Of a stretch of 32,732 nucleotides of DNA, positions 25,245 through 30,843 are shown one piece after another. Source of the DNA: Bacteroidales bacterium. GTDB taxonomy: Bacteria > Bacteroidota > Bacteroidia > Bacteroidales > GCA-2748055. The notes below the pieces were generated by a model. That model was given only the letters and a program-made list of their open reading frames with translations, searched no databases and was not told the DNA's origin. The stretch covers positions 1-32,732 of the forward strand of contig JAOZUK010000036.1 in NCBI GenBank assembly GCA_029938715.1, given 5' to 3'. The translations under genes were made by a program, and so were the position numbers. Position 1 is the first letter of the stretch, and each line of letters starts with the position of its first letter.

Positions 25245-28200
25245 TTATCGGGATTTTACCACTTTACTTACTCCCCTGATCTGATCTGACTCTATCCAGC
25301 GGAGGATATAGAGACCACGGCTCAGAGGATCTAAATCCAGCTGGAATACCTGGTATCCTGCCGGCAGGTGTTCCTCGAACACCACCTTCCCGTTTACATC
25401 GATCAGTTCGATTCTTCCCACATGTTCCGATCTGGTACCCAGGTTCACGTATATGTAGCTTTGTGACGGATTTGGGTAGATATTAAAACTGCCCACTTCA
25501 TTCAGAGGTTTCAATATACCTACAGTCTCATCTTTATAGTCCACCGCGGCCTGAAGGATTTTTCCTGTGGTTCGGTCCTGTATAAAAGCTACCACAGCCA
25601 GGTCATTGAGGTCTTCCACATAGGGCTTATAGCTCCATGTATGGGTTCGGTCGTCGATCCTCCCTTTTCGCCAGCTATCTCCCAGCAGTCTTCCAGCCGG
25701 CGACGGCAGCATATCGAGTACCACATTTCTGAATTCGGTATCCCCATTACGTCCCGAATAGGCTGTTACGGCCGTTTCAAATACCACGAGGTAGAGCTGA
25801 ATGTGATTGTCATACCTGTCGGAACTGCAGGTTATCAAAGTATTGGCCTCCAGACCAGTCTCCATCCAATTCACAGAGAGATCGATATCAAATGCAGGTA
25901 ACTCCAGGGTGATCAATCGCAGGTGATCTTCGACGGGCCCTTTACTCAGTGCTGAAAAATCGTACCGGTGAAAGGTATCAGCCCCACCATCAAGTACTGT
26001 AAATGGTATTTTTGGAACACCATAATTAAACGACCTTGTGGATGAGGAGAGTGGGTTGTTCTCATTCATGGGATCCATCGCGCCTATGTCCATGTGGTAT
26101 TGCAGATCAATGACATCTCTTGAATGATTCTTCCCGATTTCATCGATGATATCATCCGCCAATCTGGAGGTGTCACTTGAGTTGGAGGTAAAGTGCTCCA
26201 GAATGGCAATCTTCGTGCGTTCGGCCACCACGACATTGTTAAATGCAAAACCCTGGTTATTCATCCCCTGGACTCCATTGGCTGCAATGGCTACCCTGAA
26301 AGCTACATTTGCTTTTCCTACCACCTGGTCCAGGTCATGAACTGCAGTCACCCAATCGCTATCCGGATTAAATTCATCCAGGCTCCAACCCAAGCTGCTT
26401 CCACCTGGTTTATTTAATATCGGAGTGTCATTATACCACTCTATTCCCGGAGTATTTTCACCCACAGTCTTCCATCCCTCCTCAATTCCATCTCGATACT
26501 GTAATACCGCTCCACTTATTCCCGGAGCAAAACTACGCATGAGATCCATCTGGATCAGAGGTCGTTCCATATCGGTAAAATCGAAGCAGGGACTCTGGAT
26601 CCAGGAGTTCTCCCTGTAAGTAGAAACTCCGGATGGCAACCGGGTATACCATGCATGATCGCCCTCAACCGGAGTATGCCCTGTAAACTCTGGAACACCC
26701 CAGACCCAGCTTTCCACACGATCCTCTGAATGAATGGTCCACTGACCCTCCGAATCATCAAACGTTTCACTGAAACCTTCATGGTCAAGCTGTATGGTTG
26801 GCCTGAGTACAATCTCCCTGGTTAGCTCATCGAAGCAACCTCCTTTATTCAAAGTGTAAAGCCTGACCTGGTAGGCATCGGCTGTTTCAAACGGGAAAGC
26901 CACTGTATCGATGATATTTTTGGAGCCGATCTCACCCAGAAGATCTCCGCTACCGGATCTGAAGGTCCAGATTACGCTATCCAGTGAAGCGAATCCCAGG
27001 GAGGTCCTGTTAATAAATTTCACATCTGATCCAGGGGTGAAGCATTCGTTCAACCATGTGAAGTCTGCCACCGGTTTACTGTCGATTGTGGTTTCAAGGA
27101 GGTAGGAGGTAACACATCCTTCGAAGGTGATTGCCGTAAGGCTGATGCTTTGTTCACCCGGTGCCTGGTAATGATGGGTGGGATTGACCAGGTTGCTCAA
27201 ATTATCCTGACCACTGCCTATATCCCCAAAATCCCAACTCCAGGTTTCTATATATGCTTTCCCAATGGTCTGGTTATCAAAAGATACAATCTCACCTCCT
27301 TCAGGAATACATTCTGTACTCAGTTCAAAATTTACTTCAGGAGCAAACAAGATGTTTACATTCTGTTGTTGGCTGGCTGTACATCCATTTTCTGAGTAAG
27401 AGGTACAGGTGATAGAAATAGTCCCCGGGTCGGCTTCACGCGGATAGAGAGTAAATCCATCAATCAGGTTCCCTGAAATACCCTGACCTTCAAATAACAC
27501 ATCTGCTAAATTTGACTGGAGCTTAAATGGAGCCGCATTCTGACAATATGATTCTTCTGTCAGGTTAAGTATCTGGGGCTGGCTTGCAGATTCAATGGTG
27601 AACGTTTTCCTCAGAAAAAGGATTACCTGGTCAAGATATTGGTATTCTATGGTATAGTTATCGGAGTTTAATAAGGCAGGATCAATGGTTGCAGTATTAT
27701 CCCCGTGATCGGTAAGTCCATCTATTTCCTGAGAATTGGAGTTCAGTAACCTGAATGATCCTGAGGCTTGTGGAACATTCATTACACTGGCTGTAAAAGG
27801 AACATCATTCAAACAAACCGTATGATCGGGTATTAATACAGCCCCTTTAGCCCCCAATACATATACGAGTTTACTGGTAGTACTTATGCAACCATTGGAA
27901 TTCTCATAGGTGTAATAGATGCTATGAGGTGAATCAACAGTGTCTGCAAGGGCAGGATAAAAATATCCTGTTGCACTGACCACACCCGGGCCAGAGAAGA
28001 TTCCTCCCATTACATTGGCTTCCAGCTTAACCGGATCAGCTTCCAAGTTATACCCGGTAGCCAGATTGAGAATCTCCACTTCCGGTCTTTCATTTACCGT
28101 GACCTGGGTATTTCCTGTATTCGTATTTTCCACCCCATTCACATCCCTCACAAGGCTGATCTGGTATGTGGTGGTTTGTTCAGGAGCAACAGTAAGGTTA

Positions 28201-30137
28201 TAATTTGAGGAGGTAATATTCGTGAATGAGGTGGTGGTCGATCCGTCCTGCAAATCAAAACTCCAGGGAGCCCTTCCACTAAGAAGGATACTCACTTCAG
28301 TGTCTTCTCCTTCGCAAATTGGCGGTGTTTCTCCAAACGCTGCTTCTGGTAAATCAGTATAGATCTCCAGACTGTTGGGATCAAGATTTAAATAAGTTTC
28401 ACTCAAATTACCAGCTACATCTACCATCACAAGACCAACCTGAAGTTCCCCCGAAGCCACAGCAGCATCCTCGATTCCAACTAAATAGGATAATTCATAC
28501 AATCCAGTTGAAAGTTCGGTAACGGAAACCCGGGGTGAACTTAATTGCACCTCATTCACCATGGTTCCGGTTCCTGCTGAATACCCTATGCCATCGGCAG
28601 TAACTTGTACCACCACAGTTCCTCCCACACCCACTTCCCGGGAAGGGACTTCCATCTTTACCACCACAGGAGCATGTGCATCAATAGTAAGCTGAGATAT
28701 ATTGGAAATGGTTGAATAGGGGATACCCATATTGCCTGATGGTTTCACCAGGATGATTGAGGCCTCCAATTCTAAGGTGCCGGTCCCCACATCTCTGTCA
28801 CCCTCCTGAACTGTATAGTTGAGCACATAGTTGCCACCGCCCGATTCGGTAAAGGAGATATTGGGCTCACTTGCGGCAATAGCGTTTATATTGGAGAGTG
28901 GATGAATGCTATAATTTAATCCATCTGCACGGATGGTCAGATGAACCACATCTCCAACTTTCTTAGTGCCTCCCTCTACCTCCGCGGAACTAATCACCGG
29001 CAGGCTTGCATCGATCGGATCGCCGTTTTGAATAATCAGGTGGTTGTATGGAGCACTCTGAGCAGATCCATTTGATAGGACTAGATTGGAAACAGGGATA
29101 TCCTGTGAATCTGTAAAACTATTTCCTCCCTGGTTGATTGTGAAGTTTGCCCGGTAGGTGATGGCCGAAATACGCTGAAATCCGTCCAGTACATATCCAC
29201 CTACCGATCCGGAAATGAGGGTGAATGGATTCCCTTCGTCCTCATTCACCGTTATAGTGGCATTAACCACATCTCCGATCTTCACGGATTCATTGGGGAT
29301 TGAAACATTGAGAATTTCCACTGTACTATGGAACATTGCATCAATGGTGTGATCCGACTCCACTCTGGAGAACCGATAACTGGTCACCGGACCCTTACTC
29401 TCCCCATCTACTACCACATCCAATACTTCATATCCTGGATTTGGATGGATGGAAAATGTCATATCATCCCCCTTCTTTACTTCAATATCACCCGAGGGTG
29501 CGATACTCCCTCCAGTACCTGCCGTTGCGGTGATTGTAAATTGCGTTGGAGAAAAGATCGCTGTAATTGTATGGTCAGCTTTTACTTTCGAAAATTTGTA
29601 ATCTTTTATCGCCCCTTTACTCTCCCCATCTACGATTACATCCAATATTTCATAGTCCCTGTCTGCTTTAATGGCAAATTCCGCTTTGCCATCTCTCTTA
29701 ACTTCTATAATTCCTGAAGGTGTAATACTACCCCCAATGCCCGCACTGGCTGTGATGGTAAATCTCTCATCTCTGAAGGTAACTGAAATTGTGTGGTCCG
29801 AATTTACATTGAGAAATGTATAGCTGCTTACTGGCCCTACACTTTCCCCATCCACCTTAACGTCCTCAACTTCTTTCCTCCTGTCCGGATCCATCTCAAA
29901 GGTTATGTTGCTGTTGGCCCAAACAAATACATCACCTTTAGGGGAGATATCCCCCCCCCTGCCATCACTGGCCTTAATGGTATAAAACCACTCATCGGCG
30001 GCGTTTGAGAAGGTGGATTTATCAATGCCTTTTCCAGAGTGGCTGAAAGCATCGCTACAGAAAAACAGGGCCAACAGTATCAGTAACGAAGTCGTTACTC
30101 TGTGACCCGCACGGAATATGTATGACAGGCTCTCCAT
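25245..30137 (-). CDS. Large T9SS adhesin-like protein: InlB-type repeats, Ig/PKD, Omp28-like domain
   Basis: This 1630-residue protein has a Sec signal (to about residue 33) and three InlB B-type repeats of exactly 74 residues (about 52-269, with VDGES at 95, 169 and 243). Several Ig-like or cadherin-like domains follow (about 275-600), then SprB-like modules (PPICEGEDTEVSI, PEQTTTYQI) and two PKD-type domains (SWDFGDIGSG, ADFTWLNECFTPG). A jelly-roll domain (about 1150-1300) precedes an Omp28/thioredoxin-like domain (about 1309-1540, AILEHFTSNSSDT, YGVPKIPFTVLDGG, LAVVAFIQDRTTGKILQA). The protein ends in a T9SS sorting domain (IYPNPSQ to VVKSR). The thioredoxin-like part lacks the CxxC. It is likely displayed on the cell surface, for adhesion or as a scaffold. 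No enzyme activity is evident. The gene is divergent from the repeat-peptide gene at 30426. Confidence 0.85.
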   Translation of the reverse strand: MESLSYIFRAGHRVTTSLLILLALFFCSDAFSHSGKGIDKSTFSNAADEWFYTIKASDGRGGDISPKGDVFVWANSNITFEMDPDRRKEVEDVKVDGESVGPVSSYTFLNVNSDHTISVTFRDERFTITASAGIGGSITPSGIIEVKRDGKAEFAIKADRDYEILDVIVDGESKGAIKDYKFSKVKADHTITAIFSPTQFTITATAGTGGSIAPSGDIEVKKGDDMTFSIHPNPGYEVLDVVVDGESKGPVTSYRFSRVESDHTIDAMFHSTVEILNVSIPNESVKIGDVVNATITVNEDEGNPFTLISGSVGGYVLDGFQRISAITYRANFTINQGGNSFTDSQDIPVSNLVLSNGSAQSAPYNHLIIQNGDPIDASLPVISSAEVEGGTKKVGDVVHLTIRADGLNYSIHPLSNINAIAASEPNISFTESGGGNYVLNYTVQEGDRDVGTGTLELEASIILVKPSGNMGIPYSTISNISQLTIDAHAPVVVKMEVPSREVGVGGTVVVQVTADGIGYSAGTGTMVNEVQLSSPRVSVTELSTGLYELSYLVGIEDAAVASGELQVGLVMVDVAGNLSETYLNLDPNSLEIYTDLPEAAFGETPPICEGEDTEVSILLSGRAPWSFDLQDGSTTTSFTNITSSNYNLTVAPEQTTTYQISLVRDVNGVENTNTGNTQVTVNERPEVEILNLATGYNLEADPVKLEANVMGGIFSGPGVVSATGYFYPALADTVDSPHSIYYTYENSNGCISTTSKLVYVLGAKGAVLIPDHTVCLNDVPFTASVMNVPQASGSFRLLNSNSQEIDGLTDHGDNTATIDPALLNSDNYTIEYQYLDQVILFLRKTFTIESASQPQILNLTEESYCQNAAPFKLQSNLADVLFEGQGISGNLIDGFTLYPREADPGTISITCTSYSENGCTASQQQNVNILFAPEVNFELSTECIPEGGEIVSFDNQTIGKAYIETWSWDFGDIGSGQDNLSNLVNPTHHYQAPGEQSISLTAITFEGCVTSYLLETTIDSKPVADFTWLNECFTPGSDVKFINRTSLGFASLDSVIWTFRSGSGDLLGEIGSKNIIDTVAFPFETADAYQVRLYTLNKGGCFDELTREIVLRPTIQLDHEGFSETFDDSEGQWTIHSEDRVESWVWGVPEFTGHTPVEGDHAWYTRLPSGVSTYRENSWIQSPCFDFTDMERPLIQMDLMRSFAPGISGAVLQYRDGIEEGWKTVGENTPGIEWYNDTPILNKPGGSSLGWSLDEFNPDSDWVTAVHDLDQVVGKANVAFRVAIAANGVQGMNNQGFAFNNVVVAERTKIAILEHFTSNSSDTSRLADDIIDEIGKNHSRDVIDLQYHMDIGAMDPMNENNPLSSSTRSFNYGVPKIPFTVLDGGADTFHRYDFSALSKGPVEDHLRLITLELPAFDIDLSVNWMETGLEANTLITCSSDRYDNHIQLYLVVFETAVTAYSGRNGDTEFRNVVLDMLPSPAGRLLGDSWRKGRIDDRTHTWSYKPYVEDLNDLAVVAFIQDRTTGKILQAAVDYKDETVGILKPLNEVGSFNIYPNPSQSYIYVNLGTRSEHVGRIELIDVNGKVVFEEHLPAGYQVFQLDLDPLSRGLYILRWIESDQIRGVSKVVKSR
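29331..29984 (-). repeat. Three 74-residue InlB-type repeats (coding)
   Basis: Units align as FTITAxAGxGGSIxPSGxIEVKxG, then YEVLDVxVDGESKGxVxxYxFSxVxxDHTIxAxF. The VDGES motifs are exactly 74 residues (222 bases) apart. Repeats 2 and 3 are closest to each other; repeat 1 is more diverged. Confidence 0.85.
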
Positions 30138-30265: not shown

Positions 30266-30304
30266 ATGTGCGATTTCGTACATGTCTGATGCATAATCGT
30301 TCAT
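30266..30304 (+). promoter_or_regulatory. Candidate upstream activator site for the sigma-54 promoter
   Basis: An imperfect dyad ATGTGCGA-TT-TCGTACAT (7 of 8 paired positions) spans 30266-30283. A second half-site, TCGTTCAT, lies at 30297-30304, 21 bases (two helical turns) from TCGTACAT. The dyad is about 120 bases upstream of the predicted transcription start, where enhancer-binding activators of sigma-54 usually bind. Functional assignment is inference. Confidence 0.35.
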
Positions 30305-30370
30305 ATTTAGCATTTTTATAAAAATGTTAAATAGACTATAAAAGGTACATAAACAGATATATACATAGTT

Positions 30371-30386
30371 TGGCACGTATTGTGCA
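30371..30386 (+). promoter_or_regulatory. Near-consensus sigma-54 (RpoN) promoter
   Basis: TGGCACG-TATT-GTGCA matches the sigma-54 consensus TGGCACG-N4-TTGCA at all but one base (first T of the -12 block is G). The invariant GG (30372-30373) and GC (30384-30385) are separated by the required 10 bases, and the base before TGGCAC is T, a pyrimidine as in the consensus. The predicted start is near 30397, giving a leader of about 30 bases before the ATG at 30426. Confidence 0.6.
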
Positions 30387-30425: not shown

Positions 30426-30776
30426 ATGAGAACAACAAAAACATCAACAGGATTAATCAACAGATTAAGTGCATTAGTCATCATCCTGGTTGCATTCACC
30501 ACAATTTCATTTGCAGAGGATATAGTTGAAGATGAACTGATCGTCGAATCATGGATGACTACTCCATTTGAAAACAGTGTGGCTGAGGCTGAACTGGTTC
30601 TTGAAGAGTGGATGACCGCCCCATTTAATAACAGTATGGGTGAAGCTGAACTGGCACTTGAAACCTGGATGGTAACTCCATTTGATAATAGCATATACGA
30701 GGTGGAGCTGGCACTCGAGGACTGGATGATCACACCTTTTGAGGTTGCAGATTGCCATCTGGCCTGCTGCAATTAG
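30426..30776 (+). CDS. Secreted 19-residue-repeat small protein (WM..PF repeats), unknown function
   Basis: This 116-residue protein has a Sec signal peptide (about 1-30, hydrophobic core ALVIILVAFTTISFA). The rest is almost wholly four repeats of exactly 19 residues: 33-51 IVEDELIVESWMTTPFENS, 52-70, 71-89 and 90-108, with Trp at 43, 62, 81 and 100. The shared core is E-L-x-[LV]-E-x-W-M-x-[TA]-P-F-[END]-N-S. The last unit runs into the tail DCHLACCN, which carries three Cys. The mature protein is very acidic. I recognise no characterised family, and similar unannotated small proteins may exist in related Bacteroidota. It has its own sigma-54-like promoter and a strong terminator, so it is a monocistronic, regulated gene. 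Possible roles include a surface or matrix peptide, an envelope-stress product, or a multi-core modified-peptide precursor. None is shown. Confidence 0.85.
   Translation: MRTTKTSTGLINRLSALVIILVAFTTISFAEDIVEDELIVESWMTTPFENSVAEAELVLEEWMTAPFNNSMGEAELALETWMVTPFDNSIYEVELALEDWMITPFEVADCHLACCN
30522..30749 (+). repeat. Four tandem 57-base coding repeats
   Basis: The unit is 57 bases, four copies without indels. Conserved stretches such as TGGATG followed by CCATTT and GAGCTGGCACT recur, while third positions differ, so the array is old enough to have drifted but is held in length. Confidence 0.9.
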
Positions 30777-30811: not shown

Positions 30812-30843
30812 AAAGCCCTGGGAATTAATTCTCGGGGCTTTTT
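30812..30843 (+). terminator. Rho-independent terminator of the repeat-protein gene (possibly bidirectional)
   Basis: A long hairpin pairs AAAGCCCTGGGAA with TTCTCGGGGCTTT (two G-T pairs), followed by more T residues. It lies 36 bases after the stop and 16 bases from the convergent clpB stop, so it may serve both genes. Confidence 0.85.

Follow-up and report, generated by a model that had tools for sequence, protein, structure and literature searches.

What does a small, secreted, acidic protein made almost entirely of tandem WM..PF units do for a member of the Bacteroidales? A gene in the window (the whole 32,732-nt stretch of DNA that was analysed) raises this question. A first-pass annotation, made from the sequence alone, had taken the units for a repeating structural element or a repeated peptide product. 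We describe here the gene, the protein family to which it belongs, which we call ExWM (its genes are referred to as WM genes), the control region that it shares with exporter genes, and the function that these may indicate.

The gene and its product

Features of the gene are collected in Table 1. The Trp-Met pairs of the product (W43-M44, W62-M63, W81-M82, and W100-M101) are each followed by xxPF, and the mature part contains 21 Asp/Glu and no Lys/Arg. Tryptophans at 43, 62, 81, and 100, steps of 19 residues without an indel, and the DCHLACCN end were all confirmed as first described. The wording "four exact repeats" holds for the 19-residue period; the units themselves are not identical, and the fourth stops after PFE.

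Table 1. Features of the WM gene and its control region (window coordinates)
Feature	Position	Strand	Basis or remark
Double-dyad upstream activating site (predicted), TGTGCGATTTCGTACA-tgt-CTGATGCATAATCGTTCA	30267..30303	+	36.5 bits, leave-one-out
Sigma54-type -24/-12 promoter, TTTGGCACGTATTGTGCA	30369..30386	+	Upstream sequence read; pattern counts
ExWM repeat protein CDS, 116 aa	30426..30776	+	Stop included; open reading frame listing and homologues
Sec-type signal peptide, about 30 aa	30426..30515	+	Cleavage site by eye; helix 7-31 in the model
Repeat unit 1, LIVESWMTTPFENSVAEAE	30537..30593	+	
Repeat unit 2, LVLEEWMTAPFNNSMGEAE	30594..30650	+	
Repeat unit 3, LALETWMVTPFDNSIYEVE	30651..30707	+	
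Repeat unit 4, cut short, LALEDWMITPFE	30708..30743	+	
Tail DCHLACCN	30750..30773	+	Not conserved across the ExWM family
Terminator-like hairpin, then T-run	30812..30843	+	-18.9 kcal/mol, z -3.76; nothing listed here by a simple consensus terminator scan

Tandem Repeats Finder reported a period of 57 bp for the gene (2.4 copies, 75% match). Differences among four 57-bp stretches, the fourth of which takes in tail sequence, numbered 40, 33, and 67 at codon positions 1, 2, and 3 (114 codon comparisons), with a surplus at position 3, as expected of a coding repeat. Since the same genome encodes two paralogues (E values, 2e-11 and 2e-5) and matches were obtained in 21 of the 41 genomes searched, the source genome counted, the repeat is not due to chance. 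A 118-aa frame on the opposite strand was set aside as a by-product, because the forward frame is the one kept by relatives.

The gene looks like a one-gene unit, with a divergent neighbor upstream and a convergent gene for a protein with ClpB domains downstream. The divergent gene (25245-30137), with which it has a 288-bp intergenic region in common, encodes a 1,630-aa protein with PKD domains, a T9SS sorting domain at its tail, and a weak match to InlB-like repeats.

The ExWM family and its distribution

Members were defined as small proteins with an N-terminal signal peptide (judged by eye) and at least two ExWM units, of which the window protein has four. Profile A1 was built from 24 members and profile A3 from 21 more diverse ones. 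A1 detected the protein family in 24 of the 28 genomes that represent the source genome's own taxonomic family (6/6 genera) and in 21 of 295 genomes sampled from the order Bacteroidales; with A3, matches, some of them partial, were obtained in 44 of 393 genomes sampled from the order, spread over 15 families. Over a sample of the class that included members of the order, A1 matched 2 of 395 genomes, namely the source genome and a false positive, in which the signal peptide of an OmpH/Skp-like protein (named by eye) was hit. The loci of 20 relatives all lie in assemblies of uncultured Bacteroidota, Bacteroidia, or Bacteroidales.

Database searches with the window protein gave best E values of 0.045 (Pfam), 0.0035 (NCBIfam, 16.9 bits against a cut-off of 198), and 0.039 (PHROG) and no match in PADLOC. 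Other members reached 0.0034 in PHROG (L002) and 0.0072 in Pfam (1 of 21) and touched three different NCBIfam families, one member each, none convincingly. The PDB held no ExWM match at an E value of 1 or below, and titles and first abstract lines of the open-licence literature made no mention of the family. The first-pass annotation's profile check, once run, thus found homologues with a conserved repeat and no convincing match to a characterised family, and its view of a secreted acidic repeat protein outside named families was upheld. The ExWM family is undescribed in the libraries searched; what is new is the protein family, and the control logic set out below is of a known kind.

Copy number, tails, and neighbors had been named as traits to tabulate. 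Each member carries repeated units (two to eight); neither tail nor neighbors proved constant. Within the source genome's family, a WM copy often lies between an rsmI-like gene (named by eye) and dnaB (DnaB was confirmed at one locus), which is a housekeeping context. Across the order, the neighbors vary, one further family keeping the rsmI-like/dnaB place (L332). Constant neighbors as functional partners were therefore rejected. At four loci (L062, L065, L068, and L069), WM genes stand in tandem between the rsmI-like and dnaB genes, most with their own promoter, and the copy number of neighbors differs. A radical SAM/lipoprotein pair of the TIGR04133/TIGR04134 type is convergent to the WM paralogue on G000:C917; the radical SAM protein (L002, 1806-3125) scored above the TIGR04133 cut-off, and its partner scored below that of TIGR04134. 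The pair is not a constant neighbor, and we regard its proximity as incidental.

A conserved short motif on a variable chain

Conservation was measured on 80 distinct members collected by script (start present, enough upstream sequence, at least two [EQ]xWM), and all WM pairs beyond residue 35 were counted to reduce the bias of the [EQ]xWM rule. Glutamate stands at -2 in 353 of 366 WM pairs, and methionine directly follows ExW in 353 of 364 cases. Position -8 is Glu or Asp and position -3 Ile, Leu, or Val in 86% each (356 units), giving the form [DE]xx[LI]x[ILV]ExWM, after which an aromatic residue is frequent. The arrays are acidic (median net charge, -16; 79 of 80 negative).

Other traits of the window protein did not extend to the family. 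Spacing between units is mostly 18 or 19 residues (114 steps), otherwise mainly 16 to 30, and sometimes longer, so 19 is not a fixed length. PF is a mark of near relatives; many others have an aromatic pair slightly farther on. The C-terminal Cys cluster, once suggested to be a separate functional part, has few counterparts: at least two Cys were found in 3 of 80 tails, the window protein's among them.

A folded repeat, such as a beta-solenoid, would account for the exact 19-residue spacing of the window protein. The variable linkers of its relatives argue against such a fold, as do the lack of a PDB match noted above and, with little weight given their low confidence, two AlphaFold2 models (pTM, 0.26 and 0.20), which are unfolded except for the signal peptide and short turns at WM. 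We consider a folded repeat highly improbable, and because linker length varies, the fixed-length structural unit initially proposed is unsupported. An invariant short motif on a predicted disordered acidic chain with variable linkers instead suggests a linear binding motif present in many copies. We also looked for use of the motif in single copy by scanning four genomes with its codon pattern (41 matches; reversed-pattern controls, 1 to 7 per genome). The non-array matches that were read belonged to unrelated proteins or short frames, and the idea was dropped.

A sigma54-type promoter and a double dyad

More informative than the repeat itself is the region upstream of the WM genes, whose control signature could not be seen in the first-pass annotation. 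The sigma54 consensus is TGGCAC-N5-TTGCA, from which TTTGGCACGTATTGTGCA departs at one position. The strict pattern occurs at 13 sites in the source genome (G000) and at 6 in G016, against 1 and 0 for a reversed-pattern control. Within 150 nt upstream, TGGCAYRN5TG precedes 43 of 57 distinct WM genes, compared with 2 of 313 neighboring genes, and 37 of the 43 sites lie 32 to 50 nt before the start codon. The two control genes with the motif encode proteins that are alike, and the L060 copy matches Pfam HSP90. In the wider set, the motif was present before 53 of 80 WM genes. RpoN (PF04552) was detected in the source genome and in 67 of 70 genomes.

When T or C was allowed at one position, each genome yielded 9 to 18 sites, part of which must be chance, since the reversed control gave 0 to 5. 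At 27 of 85 pattern sites, including 7 of the 13 strict sites of the source genome, an open reading frame of at least 70 aa was not called downstream. The targets include groES (Cpn10), a gene reported as sigma54 dependent in Bacteroides thetaiotaomicron in excerpts of PMC12316311, and this coincidence supports the sigma54 reading of the element. Its promoter sequence thus supports sigma54 dependence of the window WM gene.

A double dyad emerged when the upstream sequences were aligned, TGTNCGN4CGNACA followed by about CTGTNNCNNNNNCGTTCA, roughly 100 bp upstream of the -24 box. A matrix trained on 21 copies, mostly from the source genome's family, gave control genes a mean score of -19.1 (SD, 6.9; 309 genes). 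Scores above 12 bits were obtained for 48 of 80 WM genes (leave-one-out) versus 1 of 309 control genes; a first, strict expression had matched 26 of 80. Dyad and sigma54 site stood in register (plain pattern, larger loci only) before 41 of 74 WM genes versus 2 of 605 other genes. The genomes are related and some members are near-copies, so these counts of WM genes are not independent. Both in-register genes outside the family head an operon of an ABC ATPase and a MacB_PCD/FtsX permease that adjoins a WM gene; one was found in each of two congeneric genomes. A third congeneric genome shares this gene order and has a dyad, with the sigma54 site unmatched before the called start, so that WM and MacB-like genes are adjacent in three genomes of one genus.

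Control of groES through the WM dyad was rejected, as the dyad was absent at 3 of 3 tested sites (at three other groES sites, the upstream sequence was too short). Another activator for groES is therefore likely. These three loci (L122, L131, and L176, in G000, G016, and G003) have a strong sigma54-type site, and a sigma54-activator domain lies about 3 kb upstream of groES on the same contig in each. The dyad was also absent in 4 of 4 tested copies of a common lipoprotein gene with a sigma54 site.

These results bear on one alternative, that ExWM proteins are general periplasmic chaperones or aggregation buffers whose expression is induced under envelope stress, as with Spy and CpxP, and which serve no dedicated partner. 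Their small size, export, acidity, and predicted disorder would suit that role, as would a promoter of the type found at groES and HSP90 genes. Against this, an almost invariant ExWM seems more than a general chaperone needs, and the tested groES sites are not part of the dyad-bearing set. Spy and CpxP are small exported proteins under an envelope two-component switch, with helical cradles and LTxxQ motifs. WM proteins resemble them in size and export and, by that general description, in the type of switch; unlike them, they belong to no Pfam family above cut-off and are predicted to be disordered, and in the models helix is limited to the signal peptide and short turns. We hold the chaperone explanation to be doubtful.

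Several other sigma54-type sites were recorded. At L130, L121, L162, L169, L170, and L172 (G000, G016, G003, G019, G043, and G024, respectively), such a site is followed by about 90 nt of conserved sequence, with no ORF directly behind the site, that closes with a terminator-like hairpin and a T-run. This is a candidate small RNA; five loci searched gave no Rfam match at gathering score. Another conserved stretch without an ORF lies behind a sigma54-type site at L137, L180, L178, and L220 (in G000, G003, G019, and G024); it ends in a GGGG..CCCC hairpin and T-run and had WM-type dyad scores of 14.0, 19.7, and 0.6 bits in three scored copies, and three loci searched gave no Rfam match at gathering score. 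It is a candidate small RNA of the WM regulon. A lipoprotein of about 480 to 500 aa with YDD(V/I)YY near its N terminus has a sigma54-type site in several genomes (L123, L133, L168, L214, and L237; no Pfam match for the L123 copy), and a secreted protein family of about 160 aa has sigma54-type sites, with a dyad in some (L134, L179, L181, and L209; no Pfam match for the L134 copy).

Exporter genes and a response regulator

The sigma54-pattern sites of six genomes were read for further targets. By plain pattern, a single dyad lies at -100 before an HlyD-TolC operon (4 of 4 loci examined), at -91 before an ABC ATPase gene (5/5), and at -90/-91 before an FtsX permease gene (3/3). The double-site matrix scored these lower than WM genes (HlyD, 9 to 19; ABC ATPase, 17 to 22; FtsX, below 0). 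Genes for some small secreted proteins and for a LytS-type kinase have weaker dyads upstream. The dyad-bearing exporter genes encode HlyD_3, OEP, ABC_tran, MacB_PCD, and FtsX domains, as in MacAB-TolC and other MacB/FtsX-type exporters. Unlike the components of MacAB-TolC, WM proteins are not exporter parts, and to call them cargo or ligand is a guess.

The HlyD-TolC operon is divergent from a gene for a Response_reg/Sigma54_activat/HTH_8 regulator, which is followed by a histidine kinase. With the copy at L356:6107-7480 as reference, the regulator was found (E value, ≤1e-140; paralogous regulators exist) in 27 of 38 WM-bearing genomes, the search having covered 38 of the 44, and the best match had at least 63% identity in each. 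It was also found in 9 of 32 genomes in which A1 or A3 (for some, A1 alone) found no WM gene, only two of the nine exceeding 60%.

Regulator status was known for the genomes of 49 of the 80 WM genes. The site scored above 0 before 27 of 32 WM genes where the regulator was found and before 0 of 17 where no match reached the threshold (Fisher's exact test, 4e-9); outside the source genome's family, the counts were 16/21 versus 0/17 (1e-6). These P values are overstated, because the genomes share ancestry and three families (f22, f55, and f72) account for those lacking the regulator. The plain dyad pattern gave 28/32 versus 0/17, and the sigma54 motif alone gave 25/32 versus 2/17. Five of the 32 WM genes in regulator-bearing genomes had no site; four further members of the source genome's family without a site (L062, L064, L079, and L095) lie outside this comparison. 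WM genes thus carry a dyad like that at the regulator's own locus, and the site accompanies the regulator. From this pattern, the regulator very probably controls WM genes through the dyad, its predicted binding site, and the sigma54 promoter.

In f22, f55, and f72, the WM genes of genomes without the regulator (L331, L343, L106, L098, L327, L346, and others) had neither the dyad (absent in 17/17) nor, in 15 of 17, the sigma54 site. Retention of site-less WM genes in these families means that the protein can function independently of the regulon.

A -24/-12 promoter, paired dyads about 100 bp above it, and a receiver-AAA-Fis activator are features of sigma54 regulons with Fis-type activators. 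Sigma54 regulons are treated in PMC12316311 and PMC3162934 (the available text of the latter has no word beginning with "bacteroid"). The arrangement here differs from those known in that a main target is an undescribed exported motif-array protein.

Possible function

Several functions can be considered. ExWM proteins might be multi-copy precursors that leave the cytoplasm by Sec, are cleaved to peptides the size of one repeat, and are then expelled through the Mac-type exporter under the same control. Such a precursor would consist of near-copies of one unit in tandem, the dyads are common to WM, HlyD-TolC, and MacB/FtsX genes, and excerpts of PMC5985334 describe how MacB picks up a Sec-exported peptide in the periplasm and passes it out via TolC. 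Inspection revealed no conserved cleavage site between units, linkers vary widely in length and sequence, and the loci read contained no constant neighbor that could be a dedicated maturase for a RiPP or other peptide precursor. We judge this origin of the array unlikely. The yeast alpha-factor is a multi-copy peptide precursor; WM proteins have the same order of a signal peptide and then repeated units, and differ from it in the missing processing site.

A decoy function is also conceivable, in which an anionic protein at the cell surface would soak up cationic antimicrobial peptides and complement efflux. The negative charge of nearly all arrays fits this function, as do the dyads common to WM and Mac-type exporter genes; moreover, COG0577, an ABC-type antimicrobial-peptide permease, is enriched in predicted sigma54 regulons of Bacteroidia according to excerpts of PMC12316311. 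Charge alone needs no invariant ExWM, and a surface location is only supposed, which makes the decoy quite unlikely in our estimate.

We tentatively prefer, with slightly less than even confidence, an inducible exported array of motifs that works with Mac-type exporters and has one specific partner. The near-invariance of ExWM is what favors one specific partner. The scheme builds on what is present in the sequences (the family, its motif, the promoter with its dyad, the sharing of that dyad with exporter genes, and its agreement with the presence of the regulator); from these we infer that the regulator binds, that envelope stress is the inducer, that the array binds multivalently, and which partner it has.

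In this scheme, the window WM gene would be transcribed as a single unit from the sigma54 promoter, activated by the Response_reg/Sigma54_activat/HTH_8 regulator bound some 100 bp upstream at the double dyad. Mac-type exporters composed of an HlyD adaptor, a TolC-type channel, an ABC ATPase, and a MacB/FtsX permease would be controlled by this regulator as well, or by closely related paralogues that recognize a similar site, so that WM proteins and exporters would rise together, with envelope stress as the presumed trigger. The product would cross the inner membrane by means of its signal peptide and stay largely unfolded, and its two to eight acidic linear motifs would make multiple simultaneous contacts with one specific partner in the envelope. 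This partner would most likely be the co-expressed Mac-type exporter or something handled by it. The Sec-exported disordered array may be a cargo of the exporter, a ligand of it, or a scavenger of what it removes. The first of these, a two-step cargo that goes by Sec to the periplasm and then through the sigma54-controlled Mac-type exporters, is rather unlikely in our view. If it were true, the ExWM units would each serve as a tag for export or for a receptor, and environmental Bacteroidales would release multi-copy secreted signals or peptides under envelope stress.

Significance

For an undescribed protein family, a definition (ExWM) and a distribution are thereby available, along with a promoter and a likely activator. 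All of these can be tested, and the agreement of site and regulator across families makes the link from regulator to gene testable in one strain. A two-component/sigma54 switch in Bacteroidales may command both Mac-type exporters and a dedicated exported motif array; if so, the ExWM proteins would offer an entry point to the role of Mac-type exporters in this order.
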